Source of the DNA: Atopobiaceae bacterium
Lineage (GTDB): Bacteria > Actinomycetota > Coriobacteriia > Coriobacteriales > Atopobiaceae
Assembly: GCA_022655215.1 (NCBI GenBank)
Contig: JALCUE010000002.1
Span: 310,001 to 374,000, forward strand
Length of the DNA: 64,000 nucleotides
Direction of reading: 5' to 3'
Positions 8,787 to 15,030 of the stretch are shown one piece after another. Each line of letters starts with the position of its first letter. Position 1 is the stretch's first letter. A program made the translations under genes and the position numbers. Under the pieces are notes generated by a model. The model was not told where the DNA came from and did not search any database. It saw only the letters and a list, made by a program, of their open reading frames with translations.

Positions 8787-8849
8787 TCACTAACCGTTCG
8801 ATTCTGGTCCCAGGCGGGGATGTCGGTACCAGAATCGGGCGGTTAGTGA
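8787..8849. repeat. Dispersed intergenic repeat, inverted pair (copies 1-2)
   Basis: CACTAACCGTTCGATTCTGG (inside 8787-8810) is followed after about 14 bases by its reverse complement (8825-8849), with CGCCCG in place of CGTTCG. The pair can form a long hairpin. The same unit recurs at 8931-9029 and at 53226-53281. It lies 78 bases after leuB. Confidence 0.8.
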
Positions 8850-8930
8850 TGGTATCCGCTGCGTTTCATACGTCAGTTGCAGGGAACCGGGCTTGCTGGC
8901 TGGGGTATTATGCATTTCATGCCCGCTGAG

Positions 8931-9029
8931 TCTCACTAACCGTTCGATTCCGGTCCGGGCGGGGGGATCTGGTACCGGAATCGAACGGTTAGTGAGACTG
9001 GCGGTACCAGAATCGAACGGTTAGTGAGA
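8931..9029. repeat. Dispersed intergenic repeat, copies 3-5
   Basis: Copy 3 (8931-8956) and copy 4 (8971-8997) form an inverted repeat perfect over about 24 bp around TCTCACTAACCGTTCGATTC. Copy 5 (9003-9029) repeats copy 4 in the same orientation with a 32-bp period. The unit ends in GGTCC or GGTACC. Copies alternate between CTGG and CCGG near one end, and the paired arms 3 and 4 both carry CCGG, so the hairpin is kept intact by a compensating change. Confidence 0.8.
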
Positions 9030-9082: not shown

Positions 9083-9111
9083 TTGACTTCCCTCGGGCGG
9101 GGGGCCATCAT
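9083..9111 (+). promoter_or_regulatory. Probable sigma-70-type promoter of Mg2+ ATPase transcript
   Basis: TTGACT (9083-9088) and CATCAT (9106-9111) are separated by 17 bases. The expected start near 9118 would give a leader of about 230 bases before the ATPase gene, containing the small ORF at 9168 and several hairpins. Confidence 0.45.
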
Positions 9112-9167
9112 CTGGTTGCCCGACAGCTGCGAGGCGGGAGCCTCGGACCAACACGGAGGTGTCATCC

Positions 9168-9251
9168 ATGAGTGCCAGTCACGGTCGACCGTACGACCAA
9201 AACCCGGCCATGGGGATGGCGACCGCCGGACAGGGCGGCGCTCGCCAGTAG
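9168..9251 (+). CDS. 27-aa upstream ORF in the Mg2+ ATPase leader
   Basis: The ORF starts at ATG 9168 after GGAGGT with 7-base spacing, one of the best ribosome-binding sites in the window, and ends at TAG 9249-9251, 99 bases before the ATPase start. The peptide begins MSASHGRPYDQNPAMGMATA and contains no membrane segment. Small leader ORFs whose translation responds to Mg2+ or proline control mgtA in enterobacteria, so a regulatory role is plausible. The sequence is unrelated to MgtL as far as I can see. It could also encode a small stable peptide. Confidence 0.5.
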   Translation: MSASHGRPYDQNPAMGMATAGQGGARQ

Positions 9252-9288
9252 CGCAGGGGCATCTCGCCCCGCACATGCGTGACCCCAC

Positions 9289-9342
9289 GGCCACCCTTCG
9301 CGATCGCGGAAGGTGGCCGAATCCTTCCCTGGGACAGGGAGG
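9289..9342 (+). promoter_or_regulatory. Structured 5' leader with SD-sequestering hairpin
   Basis: GGCCACC (9289-9295) pairs perfectly with GGTGGCC (9312-9318). Just downstream, CTTCCCT (9324-9330) pairs with AGGGAGG (9336-9342, one G-T pair) around a 5-base loop. AGGGAGG is the Shine-Dalgarno sequence of the ATPase gene, so this hairpin would hide it. A further stem, GGGGC/GCCCC (9256-9270), follows the small ORF stop codon. Confidence 0.5.
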
Positions 9343-9350
9343 TGGCGCAC

Positions 9351-12050
9351 ATGGTGCTGCGTCCGATCTCCACGGAGCGCGAGCGCGTGCGCGACGGGCT
9401 CCGTCACATGGCGACGATATCCAAGACCGACGTCCTATCCGAGCTCGGGGTCGCTCCGGGTGGTCTCACGTCCGAGCAGGTCGAGGCCTCGCGCGAGGCC
9501 CATGGCTCGAACGCGGTGAGTCATGCCAAGCGCGACCCCCTGGTGAAGCGGCTGCTCATGTCCTTCGTGGACCCCTTCACCGGGATCCTCGTGGTGCTCG
9601 CCCTGGTCTCGCTGTTCACGGATGTCATCACCGCGGCGCCGGAGGACAGGAACCCGTCGACCGCCATCATCATCCTGGCCATGGTGCTCATGAGCGGCAT
9701 CCTGCGCTTCGTCCAGGAGACGAGGAGCGGGAACGCCGCCGCGGCCCTCGCCGAGATGATCTCCACTACCTGCTGCGTGGAGCGTGCGGGCGCGGGCAAG
9801 GCCGAGATTCCCCTCGAGGACGTGGTGGTGGGTGACGTCGTGCACCTCGCCGCAGGCGACATGGTGCCCGCGGACCTGCGCGTCGTCGAGGCGAAGGACC
9901 TCTTCGTGAGCCAGTCCTCGCTCACGGGCGAGTCGGCTCCGCAGGAGAAGGTCTCCGAGCTCACGACCGCGGCTGACGGATCCCTCACGGACATGGACGA
10001 CCTGGCGTTCCTCGGGAGCACCGTGGTCTCGGGCGGCGCGGCCGGCATCGTGGTGGCCACCGGCACCGACACCATGTTCGGCGAGATGACCGGCATGCTC
10101 GAGGCCCGCCCGCAGAAGACGAGCTTCGACAAGGGCGTCGAGTCCGTCTCATGGCTGCTCATCCGCTTCATGCTCGTGATGGCCCCCGTGGTGCTCTTCA
10201 TCAATGGCTTCACCAAGGGAGACTGGCTGTCCGCCACGCTGTTCGCCCTCTCCGTCGCCGTGGGCCTCACGCCCGAGATGCTGCCCATGCTGGTCACCAC
10301 ATGCCTGGCCAAGGGGGCCGTCGACCTCAGCCACGACCAGGTCATCGTGAAGAAGCTCGATGCCATCCAGAACCTGGGCTCGATCGACGTCCTGTGCACC
10401 GACAAGACCGGCACCCTCACCGAGGACCGCGTGGTCCTCGAGCGCCATCTCGACGTGGAGGGCCACGAGGACGCCCGCGTGCTGCGCTACGCCTTCCTCA
10501 ACAGCTTCTTCGAGACCGGCCTCAGGAACCTCATAGACTCCGCCATCATCAAGCGCGCCCAGGAGGAGAGCGACTCCGGTGACTGCGCGCCCACGGCCGA
10601 TGACCTCGTCGACACCTACGTCCGCGTGGACGAGCTGCCCTTCGACTTCGACCGCCGCCGCGTGAGCGTGATCGTCTCCGATGGCGCGGGCGTCACGCGC
10701 ATGATCACGAAGGGCGCCGTGGAGGAGATGCTCGCCATCTGCTCGAAGGTGGAGTACGACGGCCGGACCCAGCCGCTCACCGCGGACCTCTCCGAGCGGG
10801 TGATGGCGCGCGCCGCCGACATGGCCGAGGACGGCATGCGCGTGCTCGCGGTCGCCAAGAGGAACGACCCCAAGCCCGCAGGCGAGCTCACCGTGGCGGA
10901 CGAGTGCGACATGACCCTCATCGGCTACCTGGCATTCCTCGACCCGCCCAAGGCCAGCTCGAAGGCCGCCATAGCCGCGCTCGCCGATCACGGCGTCGCC
11001 ACCAAGGTGCTCACCGGCGACTCCGACCGCGTGACCACGCACGTCTGCCGCTCCATCGGGATCCCCGTGGACGGGGTCCTGCTCGGCGCGGACGTCGAGC
11101 GCATGGACGACGACGAGCTCTCCCGGCGCGTGGCCGAGACCACCGTGTTCGCCAAGCTCTCGCCCGACCAGAAGGCCCGCGTGGTGCACACGCTGCGCGA
11201 GCAGGGTCACTCCGTCGGCTACATGGGCGACGGCGTGAACGACGCGGCCGCCATGCGCGAGTCGGACTGCGGCATCTCCGTGGACTCCGCGGTGGACGTG
11301 GCCAAGGAGACGGCCGACATCATCCTGCTGGAGAAGGACCTCATGGTGCTGGAGCGCGGCATCGTGGAGGGTCGGCGCACCTACGCCAACATGATCAAGT
11401 ACATCAAGATGACGGCCAGCTCCAACTTCGGCAACATCTTCTCCGTGCTCATCGCGAGCGCGTTCCTGCCGTTCCTGCCCATGGCCGCCGTGCACCTGCT
11501 GCTTTTGAACCTCATCTATGACGTGAGCTGCGCGGCCATCCCCTGGGACAACGTGGACGAGGAGTACCTCGAGCGTCCGCGCACCTGGGACGTCTCGTCC
11601 ATCGGCCGCTTCATGGTCTGGATGGGGCCCACCAGCTCGGTGTTCGACATCGTGACGTACCTGGTCATGTTCTTCGTCATCTGCCCGGCGGTGTGCGGCG
11701 GCGCGTGGTCGACCCTCACGGACCCGGCCGCCCAGACCCTGTTCGTGGCCACGTTCCAGGCCGGCTGGTTCGTCGAGAGCATGTGGACGCAGACGCTTGT
11801 GGTGCACATGATCCGCACGCCCAAGATCCCGTTCCTGCAGAGCCACGCGTCGGCGCCGCTGTGCGTCTTGGGCGCCTGCGGCATCGCCCTGGCCACGCTC
11901 ATCCCGTTCACGCCGATCGGCGCCGCCCTCGACCTCGCGCCGCTGCCGGTGTCCTACTTCGGGTACCTGCTGGCCATCGTGTGCGGATACATGCTGCTGG
12001 CCACCGCGGTGAAGACCATCTACGTGAGGAGGTTCGGCGAGCTGCTGTGA
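9351..12050 (+). CDS. Mg2+-transporting P-type ATPase (MgtA/MgtB type), copy 1
   Basis: The 899-aa membrane protein imports Mg2+ with ATP hydrolysis (P-type class IIIB). In order it shows an N-terminal cation-ATPase domain, TM1-2 ([14 protein letters not shown] region), the actuator loop with LTGES, and the phosphorylation motif CTDKTGTL with acceptor about D351. The nucleotide-binding domain carries KGAVEEML, and the hinge motif is [15 protein letters not shown]. Six C-terminal transmembrane helices include [17 protein letters not shown]. Length equals the family norm (about 900). ATG 9351 is chosen for AGGGAGG upstream; an in-frame alternative at 9279 lacks a site. A second paralogue follows after 124 bases. 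Expression is probably controlled through the 230-base leader. Confidence 0.93.

Positions 12051-12174: not shown

Positions 12175-15004
<2,830 letters not shown>

Positions 15005-15030
<26 letters not shown>

Follow-up and report, generated by a model that had tools for sequence, protein, structure and literature searches.

The DNA analysed here, referred to as the window, is a 64,000-nucleotide stretch of an Atopobiaceae genome and forms part of contig C2 of genome G000. On its forward strand, positions 9351-12050 hold mgtA, which starts with an ATG at 9351 and encodes a Mg2+-translocating P-type ATPase of 899 amino acids. The protein matches TIGR01524 at 1132.7 bits against a cut-off of 610.75, in agreement with the Mg2+ ATPase named in an earlier note on the same DNA. 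A second mgtA paralogue, also a TIGR01524 protein, follows in tandem at 12175-15030. It begins 124 nt past the first copy, and no leader ORF was seen in the gap between the two.

The region upstream of mgtA contains a promoter-like site (TTGACT-17-CATCAT; 9083-9111, forward strand) with 9 of 12 matches to the consensus. Two promoter-like hits were found in the region, both strands included, against a mean of 0.1 in shuffled sequences. A relative of the same genus (L012) has TTGACA, noted by eye, 5′ of its own leader. The transcript is predicted to start near 9118. Just 5′ of the promoter, at 8788-9026, lie palindromic hairpin repeats (CACTAACCGTTCGATTCYGG and its complement); this repeat occurs at 21 sites in the genome at two mismatches or fewer, and a reversed control pattern at 0.

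The features of the leader are all on the forward strand. The first is a hairpin, P1 (CGAGGC-GGGA-GCCTCG; 9130-9145), recognized by eye, and GGGC/GCCC hairpins akin to it were seen in the same way in many relatives. A Shine-Dalgarno (SD) sequence, GGAGGTG (9155-9161), is almost invariant among relatives and precedes a leader ORF (9168-9251) which runs from an ATG through 27 codons (MSASHGRPYDQNPAMGMATAGQGGARQ) to a TAG. This ORF with its ribosome site had been described in the earlier note, and it recurs in relatives. Comparison with relatives places a hairpin, P3, within the final ORF codons (9218-9246); its loop, CAGGG (9231-9235), is the 5′ strand of a predicted pseudoknot. The stem reported past the stop codon, GGGGC/GCCCC (9256-9270), is present by sequence and folding in the window, and no counterpart was seen by eye in relatives. 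The reported 7-bp stem, GGCCACC...GGTGGCC, is likewise present by sequence and folding as P4 (9289-9318), and many relatives have a GC-rich hairpin, judged by eye, at the equivalent position. Element E (CCCTG; 9327-9331), defined by comparison, has as its partner either the P3 loop, in the pseudoknot, or the SD region, in the hairpin P5. The latter (CUUCCCUG/GGA/CAGGGAGG; 9324-9342), supported by folding and comparison, holds in its 3′ arm the SD of the ATPase, GGGAGGTGG (9337-9345), itself read from the sequence. The hairpin with the ATPase SD as its 3′ arm is therefore found as the earlier note proposed.

The folding energy of the leader (9118-9353) is -119.8 kcal/mol, compared with -102.5 +/- 5.4 kcal/mol for 200 dinucleotide shuffles (z = -3.23), and 0/200 shuffles were as low. 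The M-box (RF00380) gave no match over the gathering score in the whole window and none in the leader at a permissive setting. Only sub-threshold matches to unrelated families were returned when the leader was compared with Rfam.

Relatives were found with the ATPase as query in 140 Atopobiaceae genomes, and the upstream DNA was read at 67 loci. The leader peptide had been tried as query over 60 relatives, and its hits beyond the window itself had E values of 0.08-0.93, none of them convincing. A leader ORF with its SD was present at 60 of the 67 MgtA loci, so the ORF whose conservation the earlier note had made a check of its reading is indeed kept in relatives. The seven loci which have none are L013 (the second gene of a tandem), L047, L048, L058, L066, L076 and L080, the last two being divergent paralogues. 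In other families of the order the ORF was present at 32 of 34 loci, including one doubtful case (L093), and no leader ORF was seen at L205 and L206. Among non-Coriobacteriia actinomycetes with a related ATPase, a leader ORF was found at 0/6 loci. Members of genus g51 (L193, L196, L202, L210) have a leader ORF of the form MEGSHSRKTCM.PS...; downstream of it come a CCACCACAAAGG/CCTTTGTGGTGG hairpin, near-perfect in its pairing, and later a T-run, possibly a terminator.

Two styles of peptide are found within the Atopobiaceae. Group A, to which the window belongs, has MSD(S/G)SHSR...MGE.PAGRD..RRRA, and group B (genus g9) has MDADSCKPCI.NRAMG. Of 66 distinct leader peptides from Coriobacteriia, 63 have an acidic residue within positions 2-6, as have 45 of 47 from elsewhere, whereas among 458 control ORFs the share is 24%; such acidic-residue figures, and those from peptide profiles, are inflated because leader ORFs outside the family were partly picked by eye on their N-terminus. 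The window peptide, MSASHGRPYDQ..., has its first acidic residue at position 10 and stands at the 63rd percentile of control ORFs when scored with a profile from non-Coriobacteriia leaders. The peptide of its congener L012 begins MRDSHARPCD.

The N-terminal peptide motif is common to several families, which would suit a leader peptide that is a small protein acting on the transporter, with the RNA structure incidental. This explanation is highly improbable. The C-termini differ, and the peptides range in size from 18 residues to over 40. Across all leaders, AGT accounts for 170/324 serine codons in the first 13 positions and for 29/162 later ones, a bias found also in GC-rich genomes, which suggests a constraint at the nucleotide level.

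The RNA structure was compared in separate alignments of the two groups. Alignment A1 comprised 28 of the 34 group-A leaders, with the near-duplicates L023, L026, L027, L033, L034 and L049 removed, and A2 comprised 14 of the 15 group-B leaders, L037 being omitted for its unclear ATPase start. L059, L060, L064, L065 and L067 are in neither, and a further alignment, A3, holds 35/47. In group A the final ORF codons fold as P3 with a loop of CGGGA, GGGGA, CAGGA, CAGGG or CGGGG. Approximately 20 nt 5′ of the ATPase start, element E reads UCCCG, UCCCC, UCCUG, CCCUG or CCCCG, matching the loop types in that order. At least five contiguous Watson-Crick pairs join loop and E in 28/28 leaders, with compensatory changes, and the pairing extends to eight pairs in L020 (CAGGGCAU:AUGCCCUG). 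When the loop and E are taken from different genera, at least five pairs are kept in 34%. The loop-E score, computed on MAFFT columns around a pairing already noticed in L029 in an alignment blind to pairing, was matched by 0/20000 permutations, and the same was found with one leader per genus (n = 12). When the search was widened to all of the ORF end and all of the sequence upstream of the SD, 99/2000 permutations were as good.

With the alignment fixed, 77.8% of cells in P3 and the pseudoknot are paired against 72.3% after shuffling (0/500), a count too low for GGGGA-type leaders because their pairing register is shifted by one column. Covariation across these pairs is 0.236 against 0.148 in shuffles (0/500), and slid registers all score lower. 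P5 is paired in 93.8% of cells against 85.7% (0/500), and column 315 of E covaries with column 322 adjoining the SD (GC 16, CG 7). RNAalifold, run unguided, predicted part of P3 together with P5, pseudoknots being beyond its representation. The comparative folding put forward as a check in the earlier note therefore supports P3, the pseudoknot and P5 across group-A leaders. The pseudoknot itself, which that note had missed, gives the SD hairpin its alternative. As CCCUG (E) serves both, being the 5′ arm of P5, the two predicted pairings are mutually exclusive. In terms of sequence, the one element E has two exclusive conserved partners, and the P3 loop resembles the SD-side sequence. A further candidate pairing, P2, between mid-ORF CCAUGGGAG and post-ORF CUCCCAUG, was matched by 45/20000 permutations in group A but by 14230-14636/20000 in group B, and is suggestive only.

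The location of this signal bears on a different mode of control, transcription attenuation, in which a spacer terminator, intrinsic or Rho-dependent, would act or not according to translation of the leader. T-rich tracts follow P4 in some relatives, such as L016, and it has been reported that E. coli mgtL works through a Rho-dependent terminator (PMC11282234, available part of the source). Nonetheless, attenuation is quite unlikely, as the search for intrinsic terminators returned 0 terminator-like sites in the window region and the best covariation is found at the SD rather than in P4.

Group-B ORFs stop short of the position of P3, and the E motif, judged by eye, is absent too. Genus g9 thus keeps the leader ORF without P3 or E, and therefore a different switch must act there. 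This bears also on a reading in which P3 together with the pseudoknot would be a metal-binding structure, a Mg2+-binding riboswitch, and the ORF is only coding space. The compact pseudoknot, the conserved sequence adjoining the SD and the context of a Mg2+ transporter all suit such a fold. Against it, besides the retention of the ORF in g9, stand the strong conservation of the ORF's SD, of its start codon and of its early acidic codons, and the lack of any Rfam aptamer match in the window and its leader. A riboswitch of this kind is very unlikely.

The association of the leader with magnesium transporters was examined with a covariance model, R1, which spans the leader SD to the ORF end and holds no transporter sequence. 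It was built from 24 of the 28 group-A leaders (A4), leaving out L020, L028, L031 and L032. Against the 140 Atopobiaceae genomes, R1 found 33 sites at E<=1e-5, of which 32 precede mgtA and one precedes mgtE (G100), the downstream genes being assigned by coordinates or by reading. Many of the mgtA sites are training sequences; the sites of G002, G025, G100, G101, G107, G116, G120, G126, G141, G144 and G145 are not. A site at 4.4e-5 in G025 precedes a 327-residue MgtA-like ORF, and weaker sites precede mgtE in G101 and G107. The MgtE identity is above the cut-off in G100, G101 and G107. Between E values of 1e-4 and 0.05 there are 21 sites: five lie before mgtA by coordinates, two before mgtE, and nine that were fetched have no Mg2+ transporter downstream, a tally which covers 16 of the 21 (G007, G067, G069, G074 and G081 fall outside it).

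A search for MgtE in the same 140 genomes gave six short-form proteins. A leader ORF is present at 5/5 of the short genes with enough upstream sequence (G100, G101, G107, G151 and G152). Among the longer MgtE-like genes with enough upstream sequence, a leader ORF of such N-terminus was found at 0/21; L265, L267 and L270, with upstream sequence too short or mis-anchored, are uncounted. In G100 and G101 the P3 loop, E and the SD hairpin are all visible in front of mgtE as well. That the leader occurs with two unrelated transporter families speaks most strongly for a role connected with Mg2+, and by this comparison it is probably a magnesium-responsive on/off switch. Sequence comparison in this way demonstrates the leader ORF, the predicted pairings P3, pseudoknot and P5, and the link to Mg2+ transporters.

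Occupation of E was also followed in a folding model. With E occupied, opening the SD in the G100 and G101 mgtE leaders costs 5.2 instead of 15.0 and 2.9 instead of 10.5 kcal/mol (drops of 9.8 and 7.6), and in both the gain exceeds that of every control stretch. In the window the effect is moderate: occupation of E frees the SD by 3.4 or 1.0 kcal/mol, depending on the coding sequence included. Over the 28 leaders the mean gain is 0.29 kcal/mol against 0.17 for control stretches; it lies above the control mean in 20 of the 28 and is negative in some, so that in this model an occupied E does not free the SD in every leader.

The balance of the evidence tips slightly towards a conserved cis-acting leader in which translation of the short ORF is coupled to that of the Mg2+ transporter through the exclusive partners of E, with the pseudoknot as the on state and P5 as the off state. 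A ribosome reading the leader to its end would melt P3, E would go to P5, and the SD would be hidden. Early exit of the ribosome from the leader would let P3 fold and its loop capture E, freeing the SD. The trigger may be ribosome drop-off, which low Mg2+ as the signal would favour by analogy with mgtL and mgtQ. Early acidic residues could act as ribosome destabilizers, as in those leaders. Drop-off is the weakest step for the window, since its peptide has no early acidic residue.

The same parts could work with the opposite sign, such that the pseudoknot beside the SD would keep out the 30S subunit until translation of the leader by a ribosome opened it and turned the pump on. The pseudoknot ends a few nucleotides 5′ of the ATPase SD, and in several leaders an occupied E fails to free the SD in the folding model. 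In Salmonella, a start-codon mutation which blocks mgtQ translation lowers mgtB, which counts against a simple rule that no translation means on (PMC8092293, available part of the source). This sign is nevertheless unlikely, as P5 pairs the SD itself, is conserved and has E in common with the pseudoknot, and both mgtE leaders examined have a strong P5 and an SD clearly freed by occupation of E.

Leader-ORF control of mgtA in enterobacteria had been offered as a parallel in the earlier note, and in kind the parallel is supported by the 60/67 loci and the mgtE leaders; the ORF-terminal hairpin and the pseudoknot were what it lacked. Among the closest known systems is the mgtQ-mgtB leader of Salmonella, which according to the available part of its description (PMC8092293) has Asp2 and Glu5 in mgtQ and a stem hiding the SD. 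Both leaders have a short ORF, a strong SD, stems overlapping the ORF, a hairpin that masks the SD of the gene for a Mg2+ P-type ATPase, and translational control, which for the window is predicted. An alternative pairing with the ORF that excludes the SD hairpin is predicted here also. Unlike mgtQ as described there, the window has as its alternative a pseudoknot that reaches over a long range from a loop within the ORF, the ORF has 27 codons rather than 8, acidic residues at positions 2 and 5 are absent from its peptide, and the phylum is another one.

The enterobacterial mgtL-mgtA leader is similar in having an ORF in the mgtA 5′ leader, and most relatives of the window have early acidic residues. 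The mgtL peptide has an EPDP motif with ribosome drop-off at low Mg2+, and the window peptide is without this N-terminal destabilizing motif. Moreover, mgtL acts on Rho-dependent termination, and the available part of the source describes no SD-pseudoknot switch for it (PMC11282234). The Thioalkalivibrio mgtE motif is also a structured RNA before mgtE which includes the SD, but it is confined to Thioalkalivibrio, with no uORF reported in the part of the source available (PMC11109978).

Outside the Coriobacteriia, close relatives of the ATPase in named genomes were read at 80 loci, mostly from Bacillota and MAGs, and an SD-preceded small ORF stands at 59 of them. At 47/80 loci, picked by eye, the N-terminus resembles M[DE]x[GDE]S.., as in METGSKHSPDPDGR in a Clostridiales MAG and MESQSINSPEPERPQ in Lactococcus cremoris. 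Rfam scans of chosen loci found an M-box aptamer 5′ of the leader ORF at 15/18 loci with an ORF of this type, and in separate sets of Coriobacteriia loci at only 2/20, 0/2 and 0/8. It is plausible that a tandem of M-box and uORF was ancestral and that the M-box was lost in most Coriobacteriia. A comparable order is found at pe20 of M. tuberculosis, where the M-box (RF00380) has a downstream uORF (PMC12810186, available part of the source); the Bacillota loci have M-box, uORF and mgtA, and the window leader, unlike pe20, has no M-box. Bacillota mgtA leaders (L111-L190, for example L115, L128 and L172) show the M-box aptamer, a terminator-like hairpin and then the conserved uORF. An ORF-terminal hairpin and a CUGUAC.../GGAGGUACAG pairing hiding the SD were seen in them by eye.

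The chances are about even that these leaders represent a widespread class of Mg2+ control elements, not described before, which act through coupled translation and share an acidic-start leader ORF; it would take in the mgtA leaders of Coriobacteriia, those of Bacillota behind their M-box, and the mgtE leaders. Within it, the Atopobiaceae would have evolved a loop in an ORF hairpin which imitates the SD side of the transporter and vies with it for one anti-SD element. The window would be derived in that it retained the RNA switch while its early acidic codon was lost. That a leader ORF can control a Mg2+ transporter is already known; the pseudoknot as alternative to the SD hairpin, the spread across lineages and the link to mgtE are new. 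Titles and abstracts of the open-access literature, a scope outside which most subscription papers fall, gave none on a mgtA or mgtE leader ORF in Coriobacteriia or Bacillota. It is in enterobacteria that such control of Mg2+ uptake was established. The presence of leader ORFs upstream of mgtA and mgtE across Coriobacteriia, and between M-box and mgtA in Bacillota, suggests that sensing of Mg2+ by the ribosome is common and no enteric oddity. The pseudoknot/SD alternative is a precise model, testable with a few reporter mutations, and the tandem of M-box and uORF raises the question of why one mRNA should have two Mg2+ controls.

Some loci depart from the usual gene arrangement. At L274 and L276 (genomes G291 and G211), a leader ORF (MDGGHSRRTTDS...) precedes a short ORF that resembles, by eye, the first part of MgtA only and adjoins a response-regulator gene. 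L212 and L213 (G568 and G530) may be fusions: the MgtA-type ATPase there belongs to an open frame of 1318 codons, and the portion upstream of it resembles an MgtE/CBS region on reading.
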